Origin: a virus
IMG/VR virus record: IMGVR_UViG_3300045999_007906
Span: 1 to 48,566 of that record
Strand: one strand, 5' to 3'
DNA length: 48,566 nt
The translations under genes were made by a program, and so were the position numbers. Under the pieces are notes generated by a model. It was not told where the DNA came from, made no database searches, and was given only the letters and a program-made list of their open reading frames with translations. Shown here piece after piece: positions 10,812-48,566 of this stretch (positions within the stretch are counted from its first letter, which is position 1; every line of letters begins with the position of its first letter).

Positions 10812-13800
10812 ATGGCTGAACTAACACACTCACATAATATTAGCGGAACTTTAATCGGATTAACCCCAGGAAGTAACCCTTTAACAGTCGGATTGACGTT
10901 TTCTGTTGATGGTGTGTCTTTTTCCTCTGTAATTTTTGATATACTCGTTGCTTTAAATTCTTTTGAATATGAAGGAACATATACCGATATCAATGCCCTC
11001 AGAGCTGCGTTTGGTAGTTCTGAGATTATAGTAGCAGATAACACAAACGGCCTTGTTGTAAGCAATGTAGGATCTACATGGAATCATTATATTGGAGTTA
11101 CTTTATATTCTCCTAATAATAATATTTTTAACCCTGGATTAGCTGAAGAAATATATGATAGCGATTTACATTATCGAACAAGACCAAATTCTTTCAGCGT
11201 AAAATATGGAGCATTTGGTCAAACTGGTCCGAGTCAAATAGCAGAAGTTGCCTCTTCAACAAGAGGAGAGACTATTTCGTTTATACCGTTTAACATTGTT
11301 TCAGCGACTAACGGAAATGCTGGATCAACGCTAGGCTTAACGCTAAATTCTGCAAATATTCAAAGATTTTATGTTGGTATTGGTACAGGTGCAACTTTTT
11401 TTGGTATAGTATCATTACTCGGTTGTACTAATGCAATAACTTTAAATTCTTTAAACTTAACTTCTACTCAAATAAATGAAATAAATGCGGATTATTTAGA
11501 TCCTAATATTTCTGGTTCTGATTCAAAATTCAATACGCTTAGAAGAATTGTTGATACGTCGGGAACAACATATTTTAATACTTCCTACACTGAATTTGTA
11601 ATACCGAGACATATTCCAGCAGGAAATTATTACTTAATGGCTATTCCAAATTCGTTTTTTGGACTTGGAGCGTTTTCAACTACTGAATCCTTTTTAGCAG
11701 CAAATCTTAATTTACCTACTACCAATATTAATATTACAAGTAATATAACTCCTGGTCTTACTGCTATTTATAGTTTTTCTCCAGGAACAACCTTTTTTAC
11801 AACACCAATTTCTTCTAGAGTATCTAATCTTTCAAATGCTTTTTCATATGTTGATTATGCAGATACTACCTTTTCTGTTTTTGATCCAATCACTTTTAAT
11901 TTAGCAACATCCCCATTTGGAATCACAAATAATTTACTTGGAAATACATTTCATAAAATGGATTATGGAATAAATGGTAGAGGCACTACAAATTATGGCG
12001 GTGCTTATGCTAATAACCCAATATCATTTGTTTCTCCGTTATTTGGATTTATTCCGATTGGTTTGACTTCTGGTAATACTTTAACCGTATTATTAGATGG
12101 TATTACATTTTATGAAAAAATTTATAATCCTTATAATGTAAATTTTAATAATAGTAATTTTTCTCATTTTTATACAGTTAGTTCAAATGTTGGTAATAAT
12201 GCAAGATTTACACGACTAATAAATGAAGCTAATAATTTATCAGGTAAAAGAAATTTAAATCATATTAATAGAGCATATTATAGAGTAGATTTTAACAATC
12301 ATGCCAATCCTTGGGGTTTTACTGGATTTACATTTGGACAAGGGTCTACACAAAGTGAATTAAAAGTAATTTATGGAAATCCTGTAAACGGTGTGTCGTT
12401 CACTTTACCAATTAATACCGGATCTCCTTCTGATTTTTATGCATTAACAGGAACAGGCGTATATATCCCCATTCAAGGTGATAATAATGGAGTTACATTA
12501 ATTCCTGGTTCTTCTATTGAAGTTCACTATTCTAACAGACCATTAGGATATATTGAAAAATTAAATTTATACAATGGATCTGGTAATTTTGCTTTAGGTA
12601 TAACTATTGCTGATAATACAACTTTTTCCCCAAGAAATACTACTGAACTTGGATTTATTAGAAAAACATATGATCCATCAAATGTTGAAACTATTACTAT
12701 TCCAAATTTAAATGCAGTTGGAACTACGGGAACTGCAAGAATTTCATTTATACGAGCTGATGGTGTAAGTTACGAATTTGGTTCTACTCCAGTTACAACA
12801 CCATTTAGAACATATTCACCTGTTCATACACTTGGAGATATTTCTGGTTTGACCATAATTGAAACTTCTGGGAGAAATATTGCTCCAGCAGTAGATTTGA
12901 TGAGAATTACTGTAAACCATGGATTGACTAATATTGAAGCTGGAGTAGTAGGAAGAAATAATATTTACAGCAGATATTATATGGCTTCAAATGTTGATAA
13001 TATTAATACTTCTGGTAATTTTACCCCATTTTATTTTAGTTTTATATTAGATTCTATTGGTCCTGAACAGGTAGTTAATAATAGTATCACTGTTGCGAAT
13101 CGTAATTTACGCTCTTTTAGAGCAGCTGCTTTAGAGCGTGAACCTACCCTATTAGTAATATCTGGTACTGATATAACTATTCCGCTAAGAAATTATGTAC
13201 CAGTTGTTGGTTATACTGCCGCTAATGGTACTTTTATTCAATGGCCAGTTACCACTATCGAAGAAAATAGTTCATTAACCCAACTAATGGATTATTTTAA
13301 TGGTCCTGCACAAACAGAAGCAGAATTATTGGCACAATCTGAGGCATCTTATTATCAAAGTTATGATGCTGGTTATACATTAATGTTTGATAATGGTGAT
13401 AATCCTCAACCAGAATTTAATGGCGGTGAATGGTATCTTGCAAATCCAGGATCATTTTTAAGGTATTCAAGCGGAAGTACCTTTTATCCATCAACTGCAT
13501 TTACTTTCAATGGTTCTAATAGAAGTTATATAAATTATATCTTCTATGATTATAGAATTACAGGATTAACTTTATCATCAACATCATCAGTAGGTGTGCA
13601 AGATTCGTTAACAGCAACAATAATAGTAAATGATTTGCCACATGCATCTATTTTTGATGGTTTAAGATTACAGGTTCTTAATGGAAGTTCAGAACTGTTT
13701 GGTAAAAATATTCTATATTCAACTACAAACACTAATGAATATAGAATTCCTGGATATTCTACTATAGGAATAACTAATTTTGCTGCTTATTATACTGCAA

Positions 13801-15188: not shown

Positions 15189-15194
15189 TAAATA
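15187..15194 (+). promoter_or_regulatory. Possible late promoter before sheath paralogue 2
   Basis: AATAAATA fits the T4-type late core (NATAAATA) and lies just before the ATG at 15199, where no Shine-Dalgarno sequence is seen. In this AT-rich DNA a chance match is likely. Confidence 0.22.
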
Positions 15195-15198
15195 ATAT

Positions 15199-16332
15199 AT
15201 GCCGATTACAACTACTACTCAATCAAATACATTTAATATATCTCCTGTATCTCCTACAGATCATTATACAGGATTTTTATGTTCAACTACAACATATAAT
15301 TTGCTGGGCGCAACTGCAGATGTATTTACAAATCTTGAAACAATTTCTGAATCTATTTCTACATTATCTTCAAGAACTACATATACGAATATAACCACTA
15401 ATAGTTTAACTGACAAAGAAATTCATTCAATTTTTAATTGTATGGAATACGGTGGTAAAATTGTACTTTCGGGCACAACTGGCGGATTGGCTTTATCATC
15501 TGCAAAAATTTCTGAAGTAATTTCGGAAGATGCATCTAGATACAATGAAGTTTTAAGCGTAGCAAAAGCTAGATTAAATTGCATTGCTATAATTGGTTCA
15601 GATAGAGATGTTAGCGGAAATTATACAAATCCAGATCAAGCTAATATTATTTCACAAGTAGATACTCAACTTGGAACTACTGGAACAACTGCAATATCAT
15701 ATCTTGCATGTACTGTTATAGGTCATAAAGACAGACCTAGATTTTATACTGGTTCTTCTTCGACAACGACCGGAATTACAGTATTTCTTGTTTCGGATGC
15801 AGCAGGAGCAAATGCAAGAGCATCTTCTCAGTCAAAACCATACTTAACATCTGCTGGTGTTTATAGAGGAGAGCTTTTAAATTACACAAATGTAACTCCA
15901 AAACTATCTTTTACTTCATCGACTACTTTAGCTACTAGAGGTATTAATTATTTTAATTATCTTCAGTCAAAAGGCAAATATTACTTGTGGGGAGATGAAA
16001 CTGGATTTAGAGATAGCACAAGCGCAAAAAGCTCATATGGATTTGCCAAAGCGTTTGTCTATATTAATAGAGAAACCACTTCTATTTTGGATGATTATGT
16101 ATTTGAATTCAATGATGCAACTACAAGATCAGCAATTAAATCAAAAATTCAAAATCTTTTAGATCCAATGGTTTCCAATGGAGCATTGGTTAGTTACGTT
16201 TTAATCTGCGATGAAACAAACAACCCACAATCAGTAATTAATCAGAGACAACTAAAAGTAGATCTAACAATAGTACCAAATCTACCAGTAAAGAGTATTA
16301 CACTCACATTTAGCATTTCTCTGCTATCATGA
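15199..16332 (+). CDS. Tail sheath gp18 paralogue 2 (compact)
   Basis: A 377-residue protein that aligns by eye over nearly its whole length with the C-terminal sheath domain of the preceding gene: 'DHYTGFLCSTTTYNLLG', 'DKEIHSIFNCMEYGGKIVLSG', 'ATRGINYFNYLQSKGKYYLWGDETG', 'LDDYVFEFNDATTRSAIKSK' and 'LICDETNNPQSVINQRQLKVDLTIVP'. The D/NETNN segment is a sheath signature. At this length it has only the inner sheath core that polymerises and contracts, lacking outer domains of T4 gp18 (659 residues). It uses more AT-rich codons than paralogue 1's sheath part. It may form a minor sheath ring or mixed sheath, or be the ordinary building block; the sequence does not decide. It overlaps the next gene by 4 bases. 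Confidence 0.8.
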   Translation: MPITTTTQSNTFNISPVSPTDHYTGFLCSTTTYNLLGATADVFTNLETISESISTLSSRTTYTNITTNSLTDKEIHSIFNCMEYGGKIVLSGTTGGLALSSAKISEVISEDASRYNEVLSVAKARLNCIAIIGSDRDVSGNYTNPDQANIISQVDTQLGTTGTTAISYLACTVIGHKDRPRFYTGSSSTTTGITVFLVSDAAGANARASSQSKPYLTSAGVYRGELLNYTNVTPKLSFTSSTTLATRGINYFNYLQSKGKYYLWGDETGFRDSTSAKSSYGFAKAFVYINRETTSILDDYVFEFNDATTRSAIKSKIQNLLDPMVSNGALVSYVLICDETNNPQSVINQRQLKVDLTIVPNLPVKSITLTFSISLLS

Positions 16333-17750
16333 ATATAGTTAATTACGGTCAAGTAGCAACACCAAGCGGTTTTAAAATACTTGCTTTTGTTACTCCATTG
16401 ACTCAAAGTGTTTTATCTGGAATTACAGTAAGTCAATTAAACCAAGATCAACTAACATATGTTGAATCACTAACAGATTTTGTTGATACTTTATTTGGAT
16501 ATACTGCAATAACATTTCAATCTGGTCCAGACACGGATGTTATTAAAAAAACAGATGTAGAATTGCACGGTATAATGACGATGCTTGAATATGGAGCATC
16601 TGTTTATGTCATGAATACATTAGGCTTAACGCTTTCAGGCGCATATACAACCAAAAATATTCAAAGCGTCATAAATTCTACAGGCGCAGAATGTATCGTA
16701 AATAATGTATTTGACGGTCTTACTGCTACTGGATTTACTGGAATTCAAGAAACTCCATTTATAATTCAAAATACAGAGTTTGAAAAAGATTTACTTGAAT
16801 ATTTTATTTCTGCGATAAATGATACAACTAGTACTGGAAGTACAGCCGGAACTCCATTTGTTTATAATGATCAAATTGGAGAAATTTATCCTAATTTTGA
16901 AGATGATATTGCACCTAATGAGTCATTTACAGAGGAATTTCCAACTTTAGGAATATTCTCATATGATACTTTTCCATCATCAGCATACGGATTAACAGAT
17001 TATCAAAATTATTCAGTATCAAATGGAAAATTAATTGATCAAAATTTTATTGAGTTGTTGGGTGTTAAGATACGAAATAGATGCATAAATCCTGAAAATG
17101 ATCCAGAAACTGTAAATGAACTATGGACTAAATCAGCAATTCCAATGATATATGATTTGGCTGGTCAATTTTCAAGATTAAAATTGGCTGGAATTCCTTG
17201 GGGTAGTACCTCAAATTTTCAAATAGGTCCTCTTTTGAATATAGTTCAGGAAGATGGAGAATATGTTCTTCCGTTTTTAAACAGTAATTCCGTAGCTGAA
17301 TATCGCAATACGATAATTGGACTTATAAACAATAAAATAAATTATGTCACTTTTTATAGTTTTGACGGTATATTTGGGTGTTATTTTTTAAGTGATCTAA
17401 CGTGCGAATCACAAACAGATAATTCTGCTCCATTTACACTAGCTCTTAGTGAAAAAAGTGTGTTTTTTGTTAACATAACCAAATATATCAAAAATAAAAT
17501 ATCAACAATATCCGAAAATTATGTTTTTGAATTAAATAATGATACGACTAGATTGTTATTGATATCTGAAATTTTGACTTTTATGAATAATTTGCTTTCA
17601 AGCGGAGCAATAAATAACTTCAATGTAGTGTCAGATGAAACAAATAATACCTTTGAAGATAGACTAAATAGGCGATTAAGGGTAGATATCGCCTACACGA
17701 CCAATCCAACAAATGATTTTGTGGAACAATCAATAATTATAATACCTTAA
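16329..17750 (+). CDS. Tail sheath gp18 paralogue 3 (divergent)
   Basis: A 473-residue protein, third in a row of sheath-like genes. Shared features: 'KILAFVTPLTQSVL' at the N-terminus, 'VELHGIMTMLEYGASVYVM' (about residues 77-95), 'ISENYVFELNNDTTRLLLISE' and 'NVVSDETNNTFEDRLNRRLRVDI' at the C-terminus. A central acidic and aromatic insertion of about 90 residues (roughly 170-260) is missing from the other two. It is the most diverged copy. A specialised end ring at the baseplate or neck is one possible role. The start overlaps the previous stop (ATGA). Confidence 0.7.
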   Translation: MNIVNYGQVATPSGFKILAFVTPLTQSVLSGITVSQLNQDQLTYVESLTDFVDTLFGYTAITFQSGPDTDVIKKTDVELHGIMTMLEYGASVYVMNTLGLTLSGAYTTKNIQSVINSTGAECIVNNVFDGLTATGFTGIQETPFIIQNTEFEKDLLEYFISAINDTTSTGSTAGTPFVYNDQIGEIYPNFEDDIAPNESFTEEFPTLGIFSYDTFPSSAYGLTDYQNYSVSNGKLIDQNFIELLGVKIRNRCINPENDPETVNELWTKSAIPMIYDLAGQFSRLKLAGIPWGSTSNFQIGPLLNIVQEDGEYVLPFLNSNSVAEYRNTIIGLINNKINYVTFYSFDGIFGCYFLSDLTCESQTDNSAPFTLALSEKSVFFVNITKYIKNKISTISENYVFELNNDTTRLLLISEILTFMNNLLSSGAINNFNVVSDETNNTFEDRLNRRLRVDIAYTTNPTNDFVEQSIIIIP

Positions 17751-36126: not shown

Positions 36127-36857
36127 TGAAAAAAAGATTGATAACATATATTTGGGAATGCTCTATCGATGAGCGAGATAGAGAAATTTATGACACATTA
36201 GACAAAAATTATAATTCTAAATTATTTGATGAAATTTTTATTTTTAGTGAAAGCGATATTAGTGATAAATTAAAAATTTATAAAAATGTTAATATAATAA
36301 AAATAAATCATAGGCCCACTTTTCAGTTTATGTTTGAATATATTAATGTAATAAGTAACAATGAAGATATTAATATTTTAGCAAATAGCGATATATTTTT
36401 TGATGAAACACTTAAATTAATAGAAAATATAAACGAAGATGAATTTTATTGTGTAACTAGACACGAATTAGATGGAAATTTATTTTTTGAAAAATTTAAT
36501 CACGAAGTTTTAGGTAATTATAGTGTATCACAAGATGTTTGGATTTGGAGGGGACAGTTTAAAGCTTATGATTGTGATTTTTTTATTGGGTATCCTGGAT
36601 GTGATAATAAATTAGCTTATAGAATAGTAGTTGCTGGATACAAAATTAAAAATCCTTGTTTGAGTTTAAAATGTTATCATAATCATTCATCAAAAATAAG
36701 ACCTGGATCATCTAAAACAAATGGAGAGGGTTATAAAAATTCTCTAACTCCAAAAGTTATTATAACACCATCTACAATAACAGAAAACTCTAAATGGGCA
36801 ATATTGAGCGTTAAACCAGGTTTATGTGAAATTTTAACTACATTAGACAATTTATGA
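36126..36857 (+). CDS. Putative glycosyltransferase
   Basis: A 243-residue protein. The ATG at 36126 within TAATG is preferred over the in-frame GTG/ATG-type start at 36114. 'INILANSDIFFDETL' (about residues 81-95) resembles the donor-site acidic motif of GT-A enzymes; 'YCVTRHELDGNLFF' and 'SQDVWIWRGQF' follow, and 'IGYPGCDNKLAYRIVVAGYKIKNPCLSLKCYHNH' is the likely acceptor part. I have seen this layout among proteins of viral sugar clusters but cannot name a GT family with certainty. Confidence 0.55.
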   Translation: MKKRLITYIWECSIDERDREIYDTLDKNYNSKLFDEIFIFSESDISDKLKIYKNVNIIKINHRPTFQFMFEYINVISNNEDINILANSDIFFDETLKLIENINEDEFYCVTRHELDGNLFFEKFNHEVLGNYSVSQDVWIWRGQFKAYDCDFFIGYPGCDNKLAYRIVVAGYKIKNPCLSLKCYHNHSSKIRPGSSKTNGEGYKNSLTPKVIITPSTITENSKWAILSVKPGLCEILTTLDNL

Positions 36858-37699
36858 TTTTTACTAAAGAAGAATTTAGGCCAATACCATCATATCCGAC
36901 ATATCCGCCTTATCACACAGGCGATTACATTGAAGATTATTTTTACAATTGGTTTATAAAAAATAATATTCAGGTGAATCGTGATTATATTGCTATTAGT
37001 TGGACTACTTTATATTGTGAAAATAAAGATCAAACTATACAGCAATTTTTATCATCATTAGATCAAACTAAAAAATATTTTACAGTTTGTCAGCACGACG
37101 ATGCACCCAAACATATATTACCAAAAGATACTATGGTATTTTCTGCATCTAGATCAAGAATTACTGATCTGACCAAAGATCAAATTCCAATACCTCTTAT
37201 TTGCTCTTCTATACCAAAACAATCAAATGTAGAAAAAGATATTTTTGCATCTTTTGTTGGATCATTTACACATCCATTGAGAATAGCTCTTTATAATTTA
37301 TGTAAGTCGCAGCCAAATTATTATTTTTCAGGACAACCTTGGAACCCAAAGGTAAATGATAATAAACTCCAAGAATTTTTGCATATTACTAATAGAAGTA
37401 AATTTTGTCTATGTCCTAGAGGGTATGGTAATACTAGCTTCAGAATGTATGAAGCTATGCAGCTTGGATGTATTCCTGTCTATATAAGTGACGATTTTCA
37501 TATTCCTTGGAATGATGAAATAAATTGGAACGATATAGCAGTACTTATACCATCTGATGATATTTTGTATTTACCTGAAATATTAAAATCGATATCTGAA
37601 GAGAAACTTCAAACTATGCAAAATAATATTAAAAAATATTATAATCAGTATTTTACATTAGAGGGAATGTGTGAAAATATTATAAAGAGAATTATATGA
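36854..37699 (+). CDS. Exostosin-family glycosyltransferase (GT47-like)
   Basis: A 281-residue protein. Residues about 182-235 carry the exostosin signature: 'SKFCLCPRGYGNTSFRMYEAMQLGCIPVYISDDFHIPW'. The upstream half ('FTVCQHDDAPKHIL', 'FASFVGSFTHPLRIALYNLC') is the GT-B N-terminal domain. Eukaryotic exostosins extend heparan-type chains; bacterial and viral members act in surface polysaccharides. No signal or membrane anchor, unlike eukaryotic forms. 4-base overlaps with both neighbours. Confidence 0.8.
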   Translation: MIFTKEEFRPIPSYPTYPPYHTGDYIEDYFYNWFIKNNIQVNRDYIAISWTTLYCENKDQTIQQFLSSLDQTKKYFTVCQHDDAPKHILPKDTMVFSASRSRITDLTKDQIPIPLICSSIPKQSNVEKDIFASFVGSFTHPLRIALYNLCKSQPNYYFSGQPWNPKVNDNKLQEFLHITNRSKFCLCPRGYGNTSFRMYEAMQLGCIPVYISDDFHIPWNDEINWNDIAVLIPSDDILYLPEILKSISEEKLQTMQNNIKKYYNQYFTLEGMCENIIKRII

Positions 37700-38421
37700 A
37701 AAAACTTTTATTTGTTATTGCCAATTATAAAGATTCAAGACAACAATTTTTTGAAGAAAATTTTTCTCCAAGAAATCAGAGATATGCTGATATTCATGGG
37801 TATGAATATAAAGTAAGCAAGGGTGGGGAATTATTTCGCGGAAATCCTACTTGGTGGAAATTTACATTAGTAAATGATATGATTTTAAATGGAGAATTAA
37901 AAATCGGTGATGAAGTATTGCATATGGACGCAGATATGCGAATAGATAAGTTTGACATCGATTATCCATGCGAAAAGTCATTTTCTGTTGCGATAGATAA
38001 CGGAAATACTTTTTGTATGGGATCTTATAAATTAAAGGTCAATGAATGGACTATTCAATTAATCAAAAATATTTTAGATGAAACTTTATGGAATAAGAGA
38101 AAAAATGATCCTCATTGGCTTTCTTTTAGAGAACAAGCAGCATTTTATACTCTATGTGGAATAATTCCTCATAGTTGGATATCATTTTTATCTCTTCCAA
38201 ACTATGGATGGCATCAAAATAAATCAGAAGATACAAAATATTCCATAGAAGAACTTAATGATAATATTCAAATTTTAGGACCGGAATGGAATACTACTCT
38301 ATTGGACGAAGAATCACATTTAATAGGACCAGCATTGATGAAGTACAATATTGTAAAATCTAAAATAAATGATACAATAATTAGACACTTCGCTGGTGGT
38401 CAAGCATGGAGAATTGTATAA
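37696..38421 (+). CDS. GT34-like galactosyl/xylosyltransferase family protein
   Basis: A 241-residue protein with 'YADIHGYEYKV' near residue 30, 'PTWWKFTLVNDMI' near 51, and 'DEVLHMDADMRI' (about 73-84) with a DxD. It ends with 'IIRHFAGGQAWR', an end motif reminiscent of GT34 (galactomannan and xyloglucan type) enzymes. It lies immediately before UDP-galactopyranose mutase, so use of a galactose-type donor is possible but not shown. TAATG overlap with the mutase gene. Confidence 0.6.
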   Translation: MKKLLFVIANYKDSRQQFFEENFSPRNQRYADIHGYEYKVSKGGELFRGNPTWWKFTLVNDMILNGELKIGDEVLHMDADMRIDKFDIDYPCEKSFSVAIDNGNTFCMGSYKLKVNEWTIQLIKNILDETLWNKRKNDPHWLSFREQAAFYTLCGIIPHSWISFLSLPNYGWHQNKSEDTKYSIEELNDNIQILGPEWNTTLLDEESHLIGPALMKYNIVKSKINDTIIRHFAGGQAWRIV

Positions 38422-39533
38422 TGATTTATGATTATGTTATTGTTGGTGCTGGATTTTTCGGTTCAGTTTTTGCTAGACTCGCAACAGATGACGGAAAAAA
38501 GTGTTTAGTTATTGATAAAAGAAATCATATTGCTGGAAACTGTTATACTGAAACTATAGAGAATATAAATGTTCATGTTTATGGACCACATATTTTTCAC
38601 ACAAACGATAAAAATATTTGGAATTTTGTAAACAAATTTGCTGAATTTAATAATTTTATTTTATCTCCAAAATCAAAAAGTAAAAATAAAATGTATTCAT
38701 TACCATTTAATATGAATACATTTTATGAGATATGGCAAACAGAAACACCAGAAGAAGCTAAGAAAAAGATATCAGAACAAAAATATAATGGTATTCCGAC
38801 AAATTTAGAAGAACAAGCCCTTTCTTTAGTTGGAAAGGATGTTTATGAATTATTAATAAAAAATTATACCACAAAACAATGGGGAAAGTCCCCAAAAGAT
38901 TTACCATCATTTATAATTAGAAGATTACCATTAAGATTTACTTATGATAACAATTATTTTAATGACAGATATCAAGGAATTCCAATAGGTGGATACACAA
39001 AATTATTTGAAAATATGTTGAAAAATATTGAAATACATTTAAATGTTGATTATTTAAAAAATAAAGAGTACTATAATTCCATTGCTAAAAATATTGTTTA
39101 TACCGGTTGTATAGATGAATTTTTTAATTATGAATATGGTAAATTAGATTATCGTTCTTTAAATTTTAAAACAAAAATATTAGATGAAAAAAATTATCAA
39201 GGATGTGCTATAGTAAATTATAATGATTTAGAAATTCCTTGGACAAGAATAGTCGAACATAAGCATTTTGAGAATAGTGATTCAGAAAAAACAATAATAA
39301 CAAAAGAATATCCCCAAGAGTATAAAAAAGGATCTATTCCATATTATCCAATTAACGATGAAAAAAATAATAAAATTTATAAATCTTATAAAGAAAAAAC
39401 AAAAAACTACTCAAATATAATTTTTGGCGGTCGATTAGCTGAGTATAAATATTACGACATGCATATGGTTATTGCTTCAGCGATGACCAAATATAAAAAT
39501 CATATTAGTGGTAATATAGAAAAAGAAATATGA
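38421..39533 (+). CDS. glf: UDP-galactopyranose mutase
   Basis: A 370-residue flavoenzyme, the usual length. FAD site 'GAGFFGS' (9-15), 'RNHIAGNCY' (34-42), 'YGPHIFHT' (54-61), then 'NYTTKQWGKSPKDLP' and 'IPIGGYTKLFE', and the C-terminal 'FGGRLAEYKYYDMHMVI' with the FAD- and substrate-binding Arg. It converts UDP-galactopyranose to UDP-galactofuranose. The ATG at 38421 in the TAATG overlap is preferred over the frame's earlier start at 38406. Its presence implies that one of the transferases uses galactofuranose. Confidence 0.95.
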   Translation: MIYDYVIVGAGFFGSVFARLATDDGKKCLVIDKRNHIAGNCYTETIENINVHVYGPHIFHTNDKNIWNFVNKFAEFNNFILSPKSKSKNKMYSLPFNMNTFYEIWQTETPEEAKKKISEQKYNGIPTNLEEQALSLVGKDVYELLIKNYTTKQWGKSPKDLPSFIIRRLPLRFTYDNNYFNDRYQGIPIGGYTKLFENMLKNIEIHLNVDYLKNKEYYNSIAKNIVYTGCIDEFFNYEYGKLDYRSLNFKTKILDEKNYQGCAIVNYNDLEIPWTRIVEHKHFENSDSEKTIITKEYPQEYKKGSIPYYPINDEKNNKIYKSYKEKTKNYSNIIFGGRLAEYKYYDMHMVIASAMTKYKNHISGNIEKEI

Positions 39534-40453
39534 TAAAAAAAGAAACTTTAACAGTTGATTTTGTGGATTTTTGGCCAAATTTTATTAAAACTGATAATTA
39601 CTTTTATCATTTATTAAGTAAACAATATGAAGTAGTAATAACAGAAAATAAACCAGATTTACTATTTCATAGTGTAGATTATTTTAGACAACAAGGTCAT
39701 AAAAAATACGATAATAATCACACTAAAAAAATTTATTATACGGGTGAACCACCTCATATGCATCGTCCTAATTATAATGAAACACATTTTTCTTTTACTT
39801 TTGAAGATACATGTGATTCTAGAAATTATAGATTGCCATTATGGGCTTTATATTTAAATTGGTTTGATGTTTCTCATGATGATAATAGAGATCAGTCGTA
39901 TCTCCATCCTGTAAAATATTTTTTAAATAAAAAAGATCCAGAAAAAATATGGGATACTAAACCAAATTTTTGTTCATTCATCAACACCCAACCATTTGGT
40001 AAAAGAGTAGAATTTGTTCCAAAATTAAATAATAAAAAATTTGTCCATTGCGCGGGAAGACTTTTTAATAATGTCAATGGGATTATAATTGGTCGTGGCG
40101 ATCAACGATGGAAAATAGAATATTTACGACAATTTAAATTTAATATCAGTATGGAAAATTGTGATGATTATGGTTATGTTAGTGAAAAAATAATTCATGG
40201 AATGTTTTCAGATTGTTTACCAATTTATTGGGGATCTAATGCGGTAATATATGATTTTAATCCAAAAGCATTTATTAATTGGCATGATTATAACAATGAC
40301 AATGATGTGATTGATATAATTTTAGATATTCATGATAATAAGTATAAATACTGTGACATTATCTCACAGCCTTGGTTTAAAGATAATCAAATACCATCAC
40401 ATGTAGACCCAAATAATGTTTTAAAATTTATAAATGAAAAGATTTTACAATAA
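39530..40453 (+). CDS. GT10 fucosyltransferase-like protein
   Basis: A 307-residue protein whose residues 203-235 match the GT10 donor-binding motif: 'FKFNISMENCDDYGYVSEKI' followed by 'LPIYWGSN'. 'YYTGEPPHM' (69-77) is the equivalent of the family's acceptor-side segment. GT10 enzymes transfer fucose from GDP-fucose in alpha-1,3 or 1,4 linkage, for example to LPS. No GDP-fucose synthesis genes (gmd, fcl) are in the window, so the donor must come from host or from genes further right, or the enzyme uses another deoxy sugar. No membrane anchor. ATGA overlap with glf. Confidence 0.85.
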   Translation: MIKKETLTVDFVDFWPNFIKTDNYFYHLLSKQYEVVITENKPDLLFHSVDYFRQQGHKKYDNNHTKKIYYTGEPPHMHRPNYNETHFSFTFEDTCDSRNYRLPLWALYLNWFDVSHDDNRDQSYLHPVKYFLNKKDPEKIWDTKPNFCSFINTQPFGKRVEFVPKLNNKKFVHCAGRLFNNVNGIIIGRGDQRWKIEYLRQFKFNISMENCDDYGYVSEKIIHGMFSDCLPIYWGSNAVIYDFNPKAFINWHDYNNDNDVIDIILDIHDNKYKYCDIISQPWFKDNQIPSHVDPNNVLKFINEKILQ

Positions 40454-41993: not shown

Positions 41994-43058
41994 ATGAAAA
42001 TTTCTTTTGTTAAATTTGCTGGTTGTGCAGCTGGCGGTACTGAAAAATATCTTCAAAGTATAGCTATACTTGTAAAAAAGGCTGGCCATGAAGTTGATTA
42101 TTATTATACTAATGCTGCGCCAATAACAAGTACTAGTTGGGTTCATCCTGATAATGATCCACTCTGCATTAAATTATTAGAAGACAATGGAATCAATCTA
42201 ATAAAAGTAAATGTTGGTTTTAGACACCATAATACATGGCATAATACTGATTTTTTTGAAAAATTTGATGAAAATGCCTATGATTATTTAATTACTGCTG
42301 GAAACGGAGGTTCCGAATATCCATACATCAATCTAAATAAAATTCCAATAATACACACCATTCATGGGCATCATGTTTTTAATAAAGCTAATATAAGCAA
42401 AAGTGTTATATTGTGTAATTGGCAAGCCAACAAATGGCTATTGAACGGAGGAGATTCTAATAAATTGGTTATTATACCTCCAATAGTTAATATACCGAAA
42501 GAATTTTCAAAATTAATAAAATCAAATTATGGTATACCAGATAGTGCTTTTATTTTTGGAATGCATCAAAGAAATGATTCAACTATTTTTTCCAATTTTT
42601 CTTTAGAATGTTTTAGAAAATTAGAACATGAAAATGCTTATATGTTTATTATGGGTGGAAGTGATAAACATAGAGACTATGTCAAAGACCATAATATAAA
42701 AAGAGTAGTATTTTTTGATTTTTCATCTAACATGAATGATATTCATAGTTTTTTGAATAGTCTTGATGTTTATGCTCATTGTAGAGCTGATGGAGAAGTA
42801 TGTTCAGCTTCAATTATTGAAGCAATGTCTCATGGTCTACCAGTTATTAGTTGTCCTGGAGTAAATAATGGGCATAAAGAGCAAATTGATGGCTGTGGAT
42901 TTTTTTGCTCAAGCATCGATGAATATACTCAATCAATGAAATTTTTAATGAATGATGAACAAGCATATTGCGAATATTCACGCAAAACTCTAGATAAATA
43001 CAATAGCGTTTATCATTATGATATAGTTAAAAATAAAATATTGGAATTATTAAAATGA
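41994..43058 (+). CDS. GT-B glycosyltransferase (GT4/GT1 type)
   Basis: A 354-residue protein. 'FVKFAGCAAGGTEKYLQSIAILVKKAGHEVDYY' is the N-terminal Rossmann start with the glycine-rich loop. 'LNKIPIIHTIHGHHVF' follows, and the C-terminal half has 'LDVYAHCRADGEVCSASIIEAMSHGLPVIS' (about residues 256-286), the E-x7-E-type nucleotide-sugar site. It retains donor configuration as a class. Acceptor unknown. Two bases separate it from the GT25 gene; ATGA overlap with the methyltransferase. Confidence 0.88.
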   Translation: MKISFVKFAGCAAGGTEKYLQSIAILVKKAGHEVDYYYTNAAPITSTSWVHPDNDPLCIKLLEDNGINLIKVNVGFRHHNTWHNTDFFEKFDENAYDYLITAGNGGSEYPYINLNKIPIIHTIHGHHVFNKANISKSVILCNWQANKWLLNGGDSNKLVIIPPIVNIPKEFSKLIKSNYGIPDSAFIFGMHQRNDSTIFSNFSLECFRKLEHENAYMFIMGGSDKHRDYVKDHNIKRVVFFDFSSNMNDIHSFLNSLDVYAHCRADGEVCSASIIEAMSHGLPVISCPGVNNGHKEQIDGCGFFCSSIDEYTQSMKFLMNDEQAYCEYSRKTLDKYNSVYHYDIVKNKILELLK

Positions 43059-43798
43059 TTAATAATGTAATTGAATTAGTTCTACAAAAATATCCAAAAA
43101 ATTTATTTGGATGTAGTTTCAACGATGGTGATCTTGGGGGGTGTAATGTTTATGGTGATCCCTTGACCGAAAATATAAAGGCATGGACATATTTAAAAGA
43201 AAAATACAATATAAAAACCGCAGTAGATATAGGGTGTGGTTTTGGATTTCATACGGCAACTTTAAGAGATGTTGTTGGTATATCAGAAGTAATAGGCATT
43301 GAAGGATCTAAAAAAGTAGTAGAATGTGCTTGTATATCCGAAGTTGTTCATAATGATTATTCTTTATCTTCATATGATCTTCCAAAGATTTTTGACTTTG
43401 CTTGGTCAACAGAATTTTTAGAGCATGTTGATTCTAGACATATTGAAAATATTATGAAAACGCTTCGTTCATGCAAATATGTTTTAATTACTCATGGAGT
43501 TCCAGGTCAACAAGGACACCACCATGTAAACTGTCAGCCAAAAGAATATTGGATAAATATTTTTAAAGAAAATGGATTTGAATATAATGAAGAAGAATCC
43601 ATAAAATGTAGAACTTTAGCACAAACCGATGTAGAAGATTTTCTAAACTGGTATTGTAATCAAAGTAATAATATTTTTGGTTATGCAGCAAAGGAACATG
43701 TAAAACATAAAGTTACAGATTATTGCAATGGCATGAATTACATGGCTTATGCATGGTTAAATAAAACTGGTTTATTTTTCAAAAATACTAAAATATGA
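43055..43798 (+). CDS. Class I SAM-dependent methyltransferase
   Basis: A 247-residue protein with SAM motif I 'AVDIGCGFGFHT' (56-67), 'GIEGSKKVVECA' as motif II region, and 'FAWSTEFLEHVD' as motif IV. 'THGVPGQQGHHHVNCQPKEYWINIFKENGF' follows, a pattern seen in sugar-cluster methyltransferases. It probably methylates a sugar hydroxyl, which blocks or caps glycans. Overlaps GT-B and HAD genes by 4 bases each. Confidence 0.85.
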   Translation: MINNVIELVLQKYPKNLFGCSFNDGDLGGCNVYGDPLTENIKAWTYLKEKYNIKTAVDIGCGFGFHTATLRDVVGISEVIGIEGSKKVVECACISEVVHNDYSLSSYDLPKIFDFAWSTEFLEHVDSRHIENIMKTLRSCKYVLITHGVPGQQGHHHVNCQPKEYWINIFKENGFEYNEEESIKCRTLAQTDVEDFLNWYCNQSNNIFGYAAKEHVKHKVTDYCNGMNYMAYAWLNKTGLFFKNTKI

Positions 43799-44505
43799 AA
43801 TATTGCTTTGATTTAGATGAAACTATTTGTGCTACTCCATCTTCAAGAAAATACCAAGAAGCTATTCCATACTATCCAGTTATTCGTAGGATAAATGAAT
43901 TATATGATGATGGACATCATATAACCATCTATACTGCCAGAGGTGGTACATCAAAAATAAATTATACAGAATTGACAACCAATCAACTTAAAGAATGGGG
44001 AGTTAAGTACCATAAACTTATAGATCAGGGAAAGCCAGACTGGGATATATTTATAGACGATAAAGCTATTAATTCAGTTGAGTGGAGAAAACGTGAGAAC
44101 ATAATAATAATTGGTTTTGTGGCTAGTTGTTTCGATTTATTACACTCGGGTCATTGTCTTTATTTGAAAGAAGCCAAATCTGTTTGCGATTATTTGATTG
44201 CAGGACTACAAACAGATCCAACAATAGATAGACCATTTAAAAATAAACCAATTCAATCTTTAGAAGAAAGACGAATACAATTAGAATCAAATAAATACAT
44301 TGACGAAATAATAATTTATGAAACAGAAAACGATTTATCCGAATTACTAAAAAAAATTAAACCTGATATTAGAATTTTAGGTTCGGATGCAAAAGAAAAA
44401 CCAATAGTCGGTCTTGATTTTTGTAAACAAATTAGATATCATGAAAGAAATCATGATTGGTCATCATCTAATCTGAGAAAGAAAATTTGTGATGCAATTA
44501 AATGA
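43795..44505 (+). CDS. Fusion of HAD phosphatase and cytidylyltransferase-fold nucleotidylyltransferase
   Basis: A 236-residue two-domain enzyme. Residues 1-100 are a HAD phosphatase of the capsule/LPS type: 'FDLDETIC' (D6, D8), 'YTARGG' (T47), 'GKPDWD' (K80) and 'IDDKAIN' (D88, D89). Residues 103-236 are a nucleotidylyltransferase of the TagD/HldE C-domain fold: 'ASCFDLLHSGHCLYLKEA' with HxGH (117-120), 'LEERRIQLESNKYIDEII', and 'SSSNLRKKI' at the end. In bacteria, heptose biosynthesis uses a phosphatase (GmhB) then a nucleotidylyltransferase (HldE or HddC) in that order, so a fusion of the two would do successive steps. With the SIS, kinase and epimerase genes nearby this is the best reading. 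Alternatives are glycerol-phosphate or other sugar activation. Confidence 0.8.
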   Translation: MKYCFDLDETICATPSSRKYQEAIPYYPVIRRINELYDDGHHITIYTARGGTSKINYTELTTNQLKEWGVKYHKLIDQGKPDWDIFIDDKAINSVEWRKRENIIIIGFVASCFDLLHSGHCLYLKEAKSVCDYLIAGLQTDPTIDRPFKNKPIQSLEERRIQLESNKYIDEIIIYETENDLSELLKKIKPDIRILGSDAKEKPIVGLDFCKQIRYHERNHDWSSSNLRKKICDAIK

Positions 44506-45169
44506 AATTATCTCTAACATAGAAACAAGAATTAGAAATTCAAGCGTTATATTACCACAACTTAGCGATCATCATAAGACATATTTTGATCGTGTAATTC
44601 CGTTGATTAAAAATGATGGTTTATGGTTAGAATTAGGTGTTTATAGAGGTAGAAGCATACAGACAATTAGTAGAAAAACAACAAATCAAGTATATGGATT
44701 TGATACTTTTACCGGACTGCCAGAACATTGGAATGCTGAAAATCCAAAAGGTTGCTATAGTGTTGGTGGCGGAATTCCTCCTGGAGCGATTATTGGATCT
44801 AATCAATCAATGTATGAAGCAACTCCTACGGTACATTATGAACCTTGGAATAGCAATGTAACCTTAATTAAAGGTCTTATTCAAGATACTCTTCCAGATT
44901 TTCTTAAAAATCATACAGAGAATGTAGCCTTTTTGCATATTGATACAGACATTTACAGTGCTTGCTCTTTTGCACTATCCACTTTAAAAGATAGAATAGT
45001 GGATGGAACTATTATCTGTTTTGATGAACTTTTAGATTATCCTGAATATAAGGAACACGAACTAAAAGCTTTCGCAGAATTTATTCAAGAAACCGGTTAT
45101 GACTTTGAAGCCTTAGTACAGCATGGCAATCACTATAGTCAAGCTTGCGTTAAGATTTTAACAAAATGA
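44492..45169 (+). CDS. TylF/MycF-type O-methyltransferase
   Basis: A 225-residue protein. 'DGLWLELGVYRGRSIQTIS' is the SAM-binding motif I; 'YGFDTFTGLPEHW' and 'FLHIDTDIYSACSFALSTLKDRIVDGTIICFDELLDYPEYKEHELKAF' are typical of macrocin-type O-methyltransferases, which act on sugar hydroxyls with the metal held by Asp residues such as those in 'HIDTDIY' and 'CFDELLD'. ATG 44492 is preferred, with GTG 44489 adjacent; the overlap with the previous gene is 14 bases, longer than usual here. It probably decorates the heptose or another sugar made in the cluster. Confidence 0.85.
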   Translation: MQLNEIISNIETRIRNSSVILPQLSDHHKTYFDRVIPLIKNDGLWLELGVYRGRSIQTISRKTTNQVYGFDTFTGLPEHWNAENPKGCYSVGGGIPPGAIIGSNQSMYEATPTVHYEPWNSNVTLIKGLIQDTLPDFLKNHTENVAFLHIDTDIYSACSFALSTLKDRIVDGTIICFDELLDYPEYKEHELKAFAEFIQETGYDFEALVQHGNHYSQACVKILTK

Positions 45170-45747
45170 AAAATTACATCAAAACGTATATTACAGAACT
45201 ATGTGAAATAGCTAATGATACCATAAATTCAAAATTGGATATTATTGTCGATATGACAAAAACTATTCAAAAAATTAAAAAAAATAATGGTAGACTTTTT
45301 TTTCTAGGTGTTGGTGGTAGTTCTGCTAACGCTTCTCACGCAGTAAATGATTTTAGAAAAATTGCTAAGATTGAATGTTATTCCATAACAGATAATGTGG
45401 CAGAATTAACTGCTCGTATAAATGATGATGGTTGGGATAGCTCTTTCTCAGAATGGTTAAAGATTTCTAACTTAAATTCAAATGATGGAATTTTTATATT
45501 TTCTGTTGGTGGTGGATCAAATAACACATCTCAAAATATAGTAAAAGCAATTGATCTGGCAAAAGAGAAAAATGCGACCATAATGTCAATAGTTTCTAGA
45601 GATGGTGGATATTCAAAAACAAATTCTGATATTTGTTATTTAATTCCATCCGTAAATAAAGATAGAATAACTCCACATGCAGAAGAATATCAGGGAGTTA
45701 TTTGGCATTTAATAGTAAATATACTAAAGGATTTTAATGATGAATGA
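45166..45747 (+). CDS. SIS-domain sugar phosphate isomerase, GmhA-like
   Basis: A 193-residue protein, about the length of GmhA (sedoheptulose-7-phosphate isomerase). It has 'LGVGGSSANASHAVNDFRKIAK' (47-68), 'FSVGGGSNNTSQNIVKAIDLAK' (112-133) and 'TPHAEEYQGVIWHLIVNIL' (169-187). The phosphate-binding glycine-serine loops are intact. Of the GmhA zinc/catalytic set, His58 is seen, Asp62 replaces the usual Glu, and the C-terminal Gln176/His181 are spaced differently, so it may be a GmhA variant or a related sugar isomerase. It is followed by a transaldolase, which could make its substrate. Confidence 0.8.
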   Translation: MKNYIKTYITELCEIANDTINSKLDIIVDMTKTIQKIKKNNGRLFFLGVGGSSANASHAVNDFRKIAKIECYSITDNVAELTARINDDGWDSSFSEWLKISNLNSNDGIFIFSVGGGSNNTSQNIVKAIDLAKEKNATIMSIVSRDGGYSKTNSDICYLIPSVNKDRITPHAEEYQGVIWHLIVNILKDFNDE

Positions 45748-46441
45748 TTTAAAAATAGATCTATATGCAGATGGTTCTGATATAGAAGAAATTAAAAGAC
45801 TGAATGCGAATCCTTTAATAAAAGGATTTACTACCAATCCTTCTTTAATGAGGAAATCGGGAATCACTAATTACATAGAGTTTGTAAATGATGTGATGAA
45901 TATAGTCAAGTATTCTCCAGTATCTTTTGAAGTTTTTTCAGACGATATAGATGAAATGGAAATACAAGCTAAAAAAATAGCAAAATATGGCGATAATATT
46001 TACATTAAAATACCAATAACCAATACTAAAGGAGTTTCTACAGCTAACTTAGTAAAATCTCTTATCAGCGAGGGTATTAAAGTAAATATTACCGCTATAT
46101 TCACCATTGAGCAATTGATTACTCTTTTACCGTTTATATCCTCTTCCACCCCAGTAATTCTTTCTATATTTGCAGGAAGAATTGCAGATACTGGAATAGA
46201 TCCAAAATCAATTGTTAAATGGGCAATTAATAATAAAACTCCAAATGCAAAAATTTTATGGGCTAGCCCAAGAGAAATTTATAATTTATATGAAGCAGAA
46301 TCAGTTGGTTGTGATATAATTACTATGACTCCATCATTAATTGATAAAATTAATATCAAAAATAAATGTCTTACTGAATATTCATTAGAAACTGTAAAAA
46401 TGTTTTACGATGATGCACTAAAAGCTGGATATACATTATGA
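45737..46441 (+). CDS. Transaldolase (small TalC/FSA type)
   Basis: A 234-residue TIM-barrel aldolase. 'GFTTNPSLMRKSGI' (30-43), 'SFEVFSDD' (63-70), the Schiff-base lysine in 'NIYIKIPITN' (K91), 'VNITAIFTIEQ', 'SIFAGRIADTGIDP' and 'ASPREIYNL'. Transaldolase exchanges a three-carbon unit and gives sedoheptulose 7-phosphate from fructose 6-phosphate and erythrose 4-phosphate. Cyanophages carry talC for pentose-phosphate flux; here it sits between the GmhA-like and heptose-kinase genes instead, suggesting supply of heptose. AAGGA precedes the ATG; ATG 45740 is also possible. Overlaps: 11 bases left, 4 right. Confidence 0.88.
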   Translation: MMNDLKIDLYADGSDIEEIKRLNANPLIKGFTTNPSLMRKSGITNYIEFVNDVMNIVKYSPVSFEVFSDDIDEMEIQAKKIAKYGDNIYIKIPITNTKGVSTANLVKSLISEGIKVNITAIFTIEQLITLLPFISSSTPVILSIFAGRIADTGIDPKSIVKWAINNKTPNAKILWASPREIYNLYEAESVGCDIITMTPSLIDKINIKNKCLTEYSLETVKMFYDDALKAGYTL

Positions 46442-47415
46442 TAATTTCTAGAACGCCATATAGAATTACTTTGGGAGGCGGTGGAACAGATTTGCCTTCT
46501 TTTTATGAGAAGCATGGTGGATATTGTATTACAATGGCTATTGATAATTACATGTATGTTTCTCTTAAACCAGATGAATTAGATAATATGTGCAAGATGA
46601 GATATTCTGAGATTGAAAATGTAAGTTCTCCTCAGTGTATTAAAAATTCTAGAGCCAGAGAAGTTTTATGTAAACATGATATTAGATCTGTAGAAATAAA
46701 TACGTCTGGAGATTTACCATCAAAGGCTGGAATGGGTTCTTCTGGTACTTTTTTAGTCGGTTTATTAAAAGTTATCAGAGAATATAAGCGCATAGATACA
46801 AGCCCAAGAATCATTGCTGAAGAAGCATGCGAAATTGAAATAACAAAATTACAAGAACCTGTCGGTAAACAGGATCAATATATTGCTTCATATGGCGGAA
46901 TTAGAATTCTTGATATAAATAAAGATGGATTTGTGGATGTTCAGACTTTAGATGTCTCTAAAAATGATTTTTCTGATTTTTTATCAAATATTCATGTATA
47001 TTCGATAGGAATACAAAGAAACGCTTCTGATATTCTAAAGGACCAATCTAAGTTAATTGGAAATACTGAATATTTATTAAAAACAATCAAAGATTATGGT
47101 TATAAAACAAAAGAAATATTAGAAAGTAAAAATTATGATGAATATGGAATTTTACTTGATGATTACTGGTCGATTAAAAAATTATTATCAAATAAAATAA
47201 GTGTTTCTCCTGTAGATAAAATTTACGAAGATATTAAACAGAATTTTTCTGTTTTAGGCGGTAAGATAATCGGAGCAGGTGGTGGTGGATTCTTTTTGGT
47301 TTATTGCAATAAAGATGTATCTAAATTGAATACTTACATGAGTCAACAGGGAATGAAAAAACTTAGATTCAATGTTGATTATTCTGGATCTAAAATATTA
47401 GGAAATTATTTATGA
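46438..47415 (+). CDS. hddA: GHMP kinase, D-glycero-D-manno-heptose 7-phosphate kinase (HddA)-like
   Basis: A 325-residue kinase. 'IISRTPYRITLGGGGTDLPSFY' (2-23) is the N-terminal pattern of HddA, 'DLPSKAGMGSSGTF' (92-105) is the GHMP ATP-binding motif, and 'IIGAGGGGFFLVY' (277-289) the third motif. HddA phosphorylates heptose 7-phosphate at C1, the step after GmhA in GDP-heptose synthesis. L-fucose kinase and related sugar-1-kinases share these motifs, so the sugar is inferred from the SIS and phosphatase neighbours. Overlaps both neighbours by 4 bases. Confidence 0.82.
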   Translation: MIISRTPYRITLGGGGTDLPSFYEKHGGYCITMAIDNYMYVSLKPDELDNMCKMRYSEIENVSSPQCIKNSRAREVLCKHDIRSVEINTSGDLPSKAGMGSSGTFLVGLLKVIREYKRIDTSPRIIAEEACEIEITKLQEPVGKQDQYIASYGGIRILDINKDGFVDVQTLDVSKNDFSDFLSNIHVYSIGIQRNASDILKDQSKLIGNTEYLLKTIKDYGYKTKEILESKNYDEYGILLDDYWSIKKLLSNKISVSPVDKIYEDIKQNFSVLGGKIIGAGGGGFFLVYCNKDVSKLNTYMSQQGMKKLRFNVDYSGSKILGNYL

Positions 47416-48323
47416 AATGTTTAGTCACAGGCGGTGCAGGGTTTATAGGATCAAATTTAGTAGATCGTCTTATAAAAGATGGTCATGAAGTAATTTGCAT
47501 AGATAACGAATCTGCAATCACAAGCGAACAATTTTATTGGAATAGTTCTGCAAAAAACTATAAGTTAGACATTAGAGATTCAGATTGTGATGATTTATAT
47601 AAAGATGTAGATTATGTTTTTCATCTCGCAGCAGAATCTAGAATACAGCCTGCAATAGAAAATCCAGAACATGCTATTAGTGTAAATTGTGTTGGCACAT
47701 GTAAGGTCATGCAATTTGCAAGAAAACACAAAGTAAAAAGAGTAATATATTCTTCCACTTCATCCGCATACGGATTAACAGACATATGTCCGCAAAAAGA
47801 AAATTTTCCAGAAGATTGTTTGAATCCATATTCAGTTTCAAAAATTGCTGGTGAAAAAATATGTAAGATGTATTGGGACTTATTTGGGGTTGAAACTATT
47901 AGTTTTAGATATTTTAATGTTTACGGCGAAAGATCTCCAGTTAATGGTCAATATGCCCCTGTCATTGGTATATTTTTAAATCAAATGAAGAACAATATAC
48001 CACTTACAGTTGTTGGATCTGGTGAAAACAGAAGAGATTTTGTCCATGTGCATGATGTAGTTGAAGCAAATATTTTAGCTATGGAAAAAAATATATCTAT
48101 ACAAAATATTGGACAGGTTTATAATGTTGGATTTGGAGAAAATTTTTCAATAAATGAAATAGCAAAAATGATCTCTAATAACATAATACATATCCCAGAA
48201 AGATTGGGAGAAGCAAAAACTACTTTGTGTGATTATACAAAAATAAAAAATACACTAGGATGGATTCCTAAGATTAAAGTGAATGAATGGATAAAACAAC
48301 AGATTATGGAGAATTTTATATGA
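47412..48323 (+). CDS. NAD-dependent epimerase/dehydratase (extended SDR)
   Basis: A 303-residue protein. NAD site 'VTGGAGFIGSNL' (5-16), catalytic 'SSTSSAYG' and 'YSVSK' (Y140, K144), then 'FRYFNVYGERS' and 'GSGENRRDFVHVHDV'. It is complete and typical of UDP-glucose 4-epimerase, GDP-sugar epimerase or heptose epimerase types; substrate cannot be read from motifs. In this setting it could convert the activated heptose (as HldD or a GDP-heptose epimerase would) or make UDP-galactose for the mutase. The ATGA overlap with the last gene shows the operon goes on. Confidence 0.85.
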   Translation: MKCLVTGGAGFIGSNLVDRLIKDGHEVICIDNESAITSEQFYWNSSAKNYKLDIRDSDCDDLYKDVDYVFHLAAESRIQPAIENPEHAISVNCVGTCKVMQFARKHKVKRVIYSSTSSAYGLTDICPQKENFPEDCLNPYSVSKIAGEKICKMYWDLFGVETISFRYFNVYGERSPVNGQYAPVIGIFLNQMKNNIPLTVVGSGENRRDFVHVHDVVEANILAMEKNISIQNIGQVYNVGFGENFSINEIAKMISNNIIHIPERLGEAKTTLCDYTKIKNTLGWIPKIKVNEWIKQQIMENFI

Positions 48324-48566
48324 AACCTACAATTACACTATGCATGATCGTAAAGAACGAAACCGCTGTAATAACGCAATGTCTAGAATCAATATGCAAG
48401 TATATTGATCGTTATGATATTACGGATACGGGATCTACAGATGGCACACAAGATTTAATCAAAAAGTTCTTTGCGGAGAAGGGTATTCCGGGAGAAGTTT
48501 ATCAGTCAGAATGGAAGGGATTCGGTGATCATGCAGGAAGAATTGGATCAAGAACCGAAGCCTTTC
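48320..48566 (+). CDS. GT2 family glycosyltransferase (3' end outside window)
   Basis: The first 82 residues of a GT2-family enzyme: 'ITLCMIVKNETAVITQCLESI' then 'DTGSTDGTQDLIKKFF', the nucleotide-binding start of the family. 'GIPGEVYQSEWKGFGDH' continues in the style of multi-domain GT2 proteins in cyanophage and giant-virus sugar clusters. Codons look less AT-rich than in the preceding sugar genes. The gene runs off the right edge; length and C-terminal domains cannot be judged. ATGA overlap with the epimerase. Confidence 0.85.
   Translation, partial: MKPTITLCMIVKNETAVITQCLESICKYIDRYDITDTGSTDGTQDLIKKFFAEKGIPGEVYQSEWKGFGDHAGRIGSRTEAF

Follow-up and report, generated by a model that had tools for sequence, protein, structure and literature searches.

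A phage operon that pairs a transaldolase with sugar-activating enzymes resembles the octose branch of lincomycin biosynthesis

Gene content and genomic context

The virus record IMGVR_UViG_3300045999_007906 is a 48,566-bp fragment whose head, tail and replication genes are T4-like, and the whole of it is referred to here as the window. Within a larger glycan locus of this fragment, positions 43795–48323 hold an operon of six overlapping genes on the + strand, with mutual overlaps of 4–17 bp, encoding in order a HAD–nucleotidyltransferase fusion, a TylF-type methyltransferase, a SIS isomerase, a transaldolase, a GHMP kinase and an NAD epimerase (Table 1). All five enzyme types named in an earlier sequence-only reading are present in this one operon. 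Among the operon's enzymes, the transaldolase alone reached the curated cut-off of a profile model, so the specific heptose names given to the others are assignments by similarity.

Table 1. Genes of the operon and its immediate neighbours, with positions in the window.
Feature	Position	Strand	Evidence or remark
GT4-family glycosyltransferase	41994..43058	+	Relatives adjoin the module in L001, L002, L004 and L008
Class I methyltransferase, overlapping the operon start	43055..43798	+	Relatives within the module in loci L005 and L008
HAD phosphatase and cytidylyltransferase-like fusion (RfaE-domain-II/TagD class)	43795..44505	+	PF01467, 1.2e-13
TylF-type O-methyltransferase	44489..45169	+	PF05711, 7e-11; proposed sugar decoration
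SIS aldose/ketose phosphate isomerase (SIS-2), LmbN-like	45166..45747	+	Best curated model gmhA
Transaldolase	45737..46441	+	TIGR02134
GHMP sugar-1-kinase, HddA/LmbP-like	46438..47415	+	Best model HddA
NAD-dependent SDR epimerase, GalE-like	47412..48323	+	GalE best-scoring model
Family 2 glycosyltransferase, truncated by the record end	48317..48565	+	PF00535, 4.6e-7

Sequence and structural comparison of the operon enzymes

The transaldolase scores 285.5 bits against TIGR02134 (cut-off 281.95) and retains the Schiff-base lysine K91 together with the transaldolase-type residues E65 and F145. Enzymes of the TIGR02134 type are also present in Staphylococcus and Lactobacillus. The window enzyme forms a clade separate from TalC/FSA in both trees, and residue comparison likewise places it outside the LmbR clade, since it carries E65/F145/A146 where LmbR carries Q65/L145/W146. 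Given this difference, sequence does not settle its acceptor specificity. We propose it as the builder of either a C7 or a C8 ketose phosphate.

The isomerase reaches 52.7 bits against the curated gmhA model, below the cut-off of 209.45. Its AlphaFold model (pLDDT 92.8) adopts the GmhA fold with a TM-score of about 0.82, and H58 and H181 are the retained equivalents of GmhA H61 and H180; however, the catalytic residues E65 and Q172 of GmhA are replaced by D62 and E173, and the phosphate loop is enlarged to ten residues (S113–S122) from the six of GmhA (S119–S124). Loops of 10–15 residues characterize both the SIS-2 family and LmbN, which isomerizes octulose 8-phosphate in the lincomycin pathway. 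In the tree, LmbN joins SIS-2 with support of 96/91, while the alternative placement of LmbN with GmhA was not rejected (p = 0.32). Residues and phylogeny together suggest that the window isomerase groups with LmbN. Enlarged-loop isomerases are accompanied by transaldolases of several lineages.

For the kinase, the best model is HddA, with a score of 124 bits (cut-off 600); kinases of standard HddA loci score 240–465 bits on the same model and form a clade separate from the window kinase. A tree of kinases intended to distinguish heptose from octose enzymes did not favour LmbP over HddA. The epimerase scores higher with GalE (148 bits) and LegB (145 bits) than with ADP-heptose 6-epimerase, for which its 123.5 bits lie below the cut-off of 274.6 expected of an HldD-type enzyme. 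The family is too generic for finer placement, and the GalE-like enzyme is proposed to epimerize the NDP-sugar.

The fusion protein has the HAD motifs (DLDET, TAR and DD) and the nucleotidyltransferase motif (HSGH); the best curated model for the latter domain is rfaE domain II, below cut-off. The protein is proposed to remove the terminal phosphate and to transfer the nucleotide. Both domains belong to families other than those of LmbK and LmbO. In the bacterial forms of the module, LmbK groups with the module phosphatases, and its grouping with GmhB was rejected (p = 0.0014). LmbO groups with the module nucleotidyltransferases (96/90) in a tree that includes an outgroup, as three unrooted clades cannot show such a union; the alternative of LmbO with HddC was not rejected (p = 0.18).

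Conserved linkage in viral and bacterial genomes

The same gene cluster is found repeatedly, in bacteria from many phyla as well as in dozens of viral contigs, and is therefore more than a chance assembly. Searched directly, the isomerase matched nothing among annotated phages, and as a single-sequence query it retrieved no confirmed viral contig; the viral relatives were found using an alignment query in its place. In viral loci where the SIS-2 gene is flanked on each side by 4 kb or more, transaldolase and kinase were each present in 51/51, and a transaldolase accompanied 44 of the 49 bacterial SIS-2 loci. The association of isomerase, transaldolase and kinase is not due to chance. The control set of standard HddA heptose loci (n = 17) contained canonical GmhA in 14 cases and a transaldolase in none, and transaldolase was found in 0/24 SIS-1 phage loci.

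Genomes bearing the module often encode related functions elsewhere: another PF00923 match occurs in 13 of 32, an isomerase of the GmhA family scoring 160 bits or more in 11 genomes, and HldE/RfaE above cut-off in 9 of the 15 tested. The HAD–nucleotidyltransferase fusion is found in 15 viral loci, none of which has a stand-alone GmhB-like HAD protein, and short nucleotidyltransferases co-occur with GmhB in 15/19 viral loci. Some phages carry a complete set of nucleotidyltransferase, SIS isomerase, GmhB-like phosphatase, transaldolase and kinase.

Comparison with described pathways

Of the pathways described so far, the octose pathway of lincomycin is the nearest that has this gene set. The functions of LmbR, LmbN, LmbP, LmbK, LmbO and LmbM have been tabulated (PMC4351081, Table 2), and LmbR uses fructose 6-phosphate or sedoheptulose 7-phosphate plus ribose 5-phosphate (PMC5854111). 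An lmb cluster was itself found by search, with homologues of all six enzymes clustered, and was recognized by its content (DegT aminotransferase, PmbA/TldD, MDMPI_N, 23S rRNA methylase and ABC protein). The octose branch of the lincosamides (lincomycin, celesticetin) matches the window one for one in its six clustered enzyme types, and shares an isomerase with an enlarged phosphate loop and the D/E active-site changes; the bacterial forms of the module add enzymes allied to LmbK and LmbO. The window differs from this branch in its TIGR02134 transaldolase devoid of the LmbR Q/L/W residues, in the HAD–cytidylyltransferase-like fusion that replaces LmbK and LmbO, and in its setting among phage glycan genes with no aminotransferase.

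The pathway to GDP-D-glycero-D-manno-heptose (GmhA, HddA, GmhB, HddC) follows the same order of chemistry, from isomerase through C1 kinase and phosphatase to nucleotidyltransferase, and its kinase and isomerase are homologous to those of the window. Its standard loci differ in having no transaldolase, a GmhA with the six-residue loop and an HddC-type nucleotidyltransferase. In the ADP-heptose pathway (GmhA, HldE, GmhB, HldD), HldE domain II is distantly like the window nucleotidyltransferase domain, but the window has no PfkB-type kinase, its epimerase is not HldD-like, and its isomerase and nucleotidyltransferase score far below cut-off.

Heptose-type genes are also carried by Caulobacter phage Cr30 and by cyanophages such as SynMITS9220M01, announced in PMC7378029, in the form of an HddA-like kinase and a short SIS isomerase. 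SynMITS9220M01 additionally has the same HAD–nucleotidyltransferase fusion and epimerase as the window. These clusters differ in having no transaldolase and a short-loop isomerase from another clade. Literature searches on phage heptose with transaldolase, on GDP-heptose phage clusters and on octose in lipopolysaccharide found no report of the module.

Proposed pathway and alternative explanations

Gene content, catalytic residues, conserved linkage and the kinship of the isomerase with LmbN, together with the kinship of the bacterial forms with LmbK and LmbO, were computed here. We give even odds to the operon being the phage variant of a higher-sugar pathway that is widespread, apparently undescribed and similar in operation to lincomycin's octose branch. 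In such a pathway, fructose 6-phosphate (or sedoheptulose 7-phosphate) would donate three carbons, which the transaldolase would pass to an aldose phosphate; with ribose 5-phosphate, the likeliest acceptor, this would yield octulose 8-phosphate, and the SIS-2 isomerase would convert that to the aldose 8-phosphate. The GHMP kinase would then phosphorylate C1, the HAD domain would remove the terminal phosphate, the fused nucleotidyltransferase would form the NDP-sugar and the GalE-like SDR would epimerize it, after which the neighbouring glycosyltransferases and O-methyltransferases may incorporate the sugar into a glycan carried by the virion or by the infected cell. We infer each substrate, the C8 length, the nucleotide, the epimerized carbon and the destination of the sugar; common descent with octose enzymes does not fix chain length.

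The earlier reading had proposed a near-complete pathway to an activated heptose. Its broader part, an operon that draws on central metabolites to produce a nucleotide-activated higher sugar, is supported, with glycosyltransferases and methyltransferases adjoining, whereas the heptose specifics find partial support. An NDP-heptose pathway is the most serious competitor, though the less probable one: the transaldolase would use fructose 6-phosphate and erythrose 4-phosphate to make sedoheptulose 7-phosphate, SIS-2 would yield aldoheptose 7-phosphate, kinase, HAD domain and nucleotidyltransferase would produce the NDP-heptose, and the epimerase would alter its configuration. The aldoheptose 7-phosphate is perhaps gluco- rather than manno-configured, a possibility raised by the gluco sugar that the lincomycin pathway yields. 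This pathway is consistent with gmhA, HddA and rfaE domain II being the best curated models, with the GmhA fold of the predicted isomerase, with transaldolase residues that are ordinary for a transaldolase, with a kinase branch slightly closer to HddA (85/85) and with the phages that carry the complete set including a GmhB-like phosphatase. Against it, all three of those models fall below cut-off, standard heptose loci lack a transaldolase, canonical GmhA, HldE and transaldolase are often encoded at other sites in genomes that carry the module, and the isomerase allies with octose enzymes, as do phosphatase and nucleotidyltransferase in bacteria. The claim that the steps are those of GDP- or ADP-heptose synthesis finds no support in detail, given the replaced GmhA residues, the enlarged loop, the LmbN grouping and the GalE-like epimerase. 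The product is more likely an NDP-octose than an NDP-heptose.

It is improbable that the transaldolase takes some other acceptor and that the activated aldose differs from both in length or configuration. Transaldolases are acceptor-tolerant, and the non-orthologous lineages found beside the same isomerase family show no more than a need for some ketose product, but the two characterized precedents for these families involve C7 and C8 sugars. Still less credible is an auxiliary metabolic gene, of the kind suggested for TalC of cyanophages, whose transaldolase tunes the host pentose phosphate pathway and whose position next to sugar genes is accidental. Cyanophages commonly encode transaldolases, but the window enzyme belongs to a different subfamily from TalC and is linked to the isomerase in 51/51 viral and 44/49 bacterial loci, and we set this explanation aside on linkage and family grounds. 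A catabolic isomerase–transaldolase pair, as in sulfoquinovose breakdown, has a negligible probability and was set aside on the same grounds. A sulfofructose transaldolase is a distant match among structures, but the genes linked to the pair, for a kinase, a nucleotidyltransferase, an epimerase, glycosyltransferases and methyltransferases, are biosynthetic.

Implications

We know of no linear octoses in bacterial surface glycans, which counts against the octose interpretation. Extending the octose interpretation beyond the window, we give slightly less than even credence to the idea that phages and many bacteria of unrelated phyla make NDP-octoses through a dedicated transaldolase–isomerase pair for surface or virion glycans, and that the lincomycin sugar pathway is a specialized offshoot. 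Should the product instead be a heptose, the literature searched still appears to hold no description of an NDP-sugar operon, phage or bacterial, with a transaldolase of its own. If the octose interpretation is true, many genes would wrongly bear the labels phosphoheptose isomerase or heptose kinase, and bacteria and viruses would commonly supply their glycans with building blocks through an eight-carbon route so far known from the making of an antibiotic.

Gene content and setting of the module

The 48,566-bp virus record carries T4-like head, tail, helicase, SbcCD and sliding-clamp genes, and its six-gene module lies within a glycan locus, the genes overlapping one another by 4–17 bp and retaining every catalytic motif checked. 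The five enzymes named by the sequence-only reading (transaldolase, GmhA-like SIS isomerase, HddA-like kinase, HAD–nucleotidylyltransferase fusion and NAD epimerase) are all encoded there, and a TylF-type methyltransferase sits within the run itself. Elsewhere in the record, a tail-sheath domain recurs in neighbouring genes; the sheath gene is usually single in T4-like phages.

Features of the virus record (window) and of a related locus
Locus	Coordinates	Strand	Content
Window	5128-9177		1349-aa protein; tail sheath stabiliser family match confined to residues 2-220, ~1100 residues without match
Window	10812-17750		Tail-sheath C-terminal domain common to three consecutive genes (1458, 377, 473 aa)
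Window	~34.8 kb to record end	+	Glycan gene run; record stops inside the locus
Window	36854-40453		Same glycan locus: GT47 exostosin-like protein with RXYLT1_C match, UDP-galactopyranose mutase, GT10 fucosyltransferase
Window	43795-48323	+	HAD + cytidylyltransferase-like fusion; TylF-type methyltransferase; SIS isomerase; transaldolase; GHMP kinase; NAD epimerase
L018 (relative locus)	9118-10008		Similar HAD domain fused to the SIS isomerase N-terminus, not to the nucleotidyltransferase

The transaldolase alone exceeds the cut-off of a curated model (TIGR02134, 285.5 bits). By their scores, the isomerase (52.7 bits to the gmhA model, cut-off 209), kinase (124 bits to HddA, cut-off 600) and nucleotidyltransferase domain (80 bits to rfaE II, cut-off 181.5) are remote kin of the enzymes of heptose synthesis; the epimerase lies closer to the GalE than to the HldD model.

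Phage loci that encode this type of nucleotidyltransferase take two forms. A short nucleotidyltransferase accompanies a separate GmhB-like HAD protein in 15 of 19 loci, the other four including two cut contigs and the window's own excerpt; the window's HAD–nucleotidyltransferase fusion occurs without a GmhB-like gene in all 15 loci that have it. Given this absence, and the fusion of HAD to the isomerase in L018, the HAD domain most likely does the job of GmhB. Judged by length only, the relative loci L200 and L205 have the same HAD–isomerase fusion.

Linkage in viruses and bacteria

The same genes co-occur in viral contigs whether retrieved by transaldolase, HAD fusion or isomerase alignment. 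Isomerase alone retrieved 80 viral loci, and both transaldolase and kinase were present in 51/51 of those with at least 4 kb on each side; among the best 80 of at least 565 confirmed bacterial isomerase matches, the 49 loci with enough flank held transaldolase in 44, kinase in 41, epimerase in 46 and GmhB-like phosphatase in 39, counts that are not independent trials because the loci, picked by similarity to the window, share descent. The isomerase–transaldolase–kinase linkage is real. Bacteria commonly carry this isomerase family. These best 80 matches came from Lachnospiraceae, Legionella, Pelagibacteraceae, Acidobacteria, Melainabacteria, Omnitrophota and others, and bacterial clusters also contain a PF00483 nucleotidyltransferase, in some fused to phosphatase. 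Plasmid 3 of Lawsonia intracellularis encodes in one stretch an isomerase of the window's enlarged-loop family (SIS-2), HAD-IIIA, transaldolase, a galactokinase-annotated kinase, nucleotidyltransferase and nucleotide-sugar dehydrogenase.

Comparison with heptose loci

Among 17 Bacteroidota control loci (kinases 240–465 bits to the HddA model), canonical GmhA lay nearby in 14, and neither transaldolase nor SIS-2 isomerase occurred in any. Transaldolase was likewise missing from a Vibrio plasmid with the canonical pair and from 24/24 loci of the cyanophage type, in which the same HAD fusion accompanies a short-loop isomerase. Genomes with the module often hold a second set: at least two PF00923 matches in 13/32, a GmhA-family isomerase scoring 160 bits or more in 11/32, and HldE/RfaE domain II above cut-off in 9 of the 15 tested. 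Ordinary heptose synthesis therefore does not require a linked transaldolase and leaves the second set unexplained; the proposed activated-heptose pathway is partly supported.

Relationship to the lincomycin octose enzymes

The lincomycin octose pathway uses six enzyme types identical to those of the module, namely LmbR transaldolase, LmbN isomerase, LmbP kinase, LmbK phosphatase, LmbO guanylyltransferase and LmbM epimerase (PMC4351081 Table 2), LmbR using fructose 6-phosphate or sedoheptulose 7-phosphate as donor of a C3 unit and ribose 5-phosphate as acceptor (PMC5854111), both secondary papers. Five matches to the window's transaldolase were found in 394 Streptomyces-like genomes, their genus judged from genome size and gene content; one, in a 10.3-Mb genome, lies among clustered homologues of all six enzymes, assigned as lmb from gene content (DegT aminotransferase, PmbA/TldD, MDMPI_N, glycosyltransferase, 23S rRNA methylase and ABC protein surround them). 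Four further Streptomyces clusters (L303, L304, L305, L306) hold LmbR/N/P homologues; L306, with no LmbK homologue in the stretch examined, may belong to another higher-sugar natural product.

In both SIS-2 and LmbN, D replaces GmhA's E65, E replaces Q172, and the phosphate loop runs to 10–15 residues, against six in GmhA and cyanophage isomerases. They cluster at 96/91 support, an LmbN + GmhA tree not being rejected (p 0.32). Two more actinobacterial enlarged-loop isomerases adjoin a transaldolase; none of the short-loop ones examined does. LmbK falls among module phosphatases of bacteria and of phages with a separate enzyme, LmbK + GmhB being rejected (p 0.0014), and bacterial-cluster nucleotidyltransferases join LmbO at 96/90, the alternative of LmbO with HddC not being rejected (p 0.18). 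HddA, LmbP and module kinases form three separate clades, the module leaning weakly to HddA. At the positions of E65, F145 and A146 in the window's transaldolase, LmbR carries Q, L and W. The module's main transaldolase type also takes in Staphylococcus-phage and Lactobacillus enzymes; TIGR02134 members from a Staphylococcus phage (L322) and a Lactobacillus plasmid (L323) lie inside its clade, adjoining Lachnospiraceae ones.

Heptose-type genes have been noted in SynMITS9220M01 (PMC7378029), rfaE in pelagimyophages (PMC7029224), and gmhA employed as a phage marker (PMC9238414). Such phage genes are already known; the relevant passages of these papers mention neither the transaldolase–isomerase pair nor the octose parallel, and searches of open-licence literature found no earlier report, though earlier notice elsewhere is possible.

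Proposed product

Genes, residues, linkage and kinship are observed directly, whereas all substrates of the module enzymes are inferred. The transaldolase would make a long ketose phosphate unavailable from ordinary metabolism, which SIS-2 would convert to an aldose; kinase, HAD and nucleotidyltransferase would activate this, and epimerase, methyltransferases and glycosyltransferases would finish and use the activated sugar. We place about one half of our confidence in an octose and about one third in a heptose. The lincomycin pathway yields a gluco sugar, whereas the product of GmhA is a manno-configured heptose, so a gluco-configured heptose is a middle possibility, which would likewise suit the GalE-like epimerase. 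Enlarged-loop isomerases are neighboured by several transaldolase lineages, which suggests that the product, rather than one ancestral transaldolase gene, has been kept.
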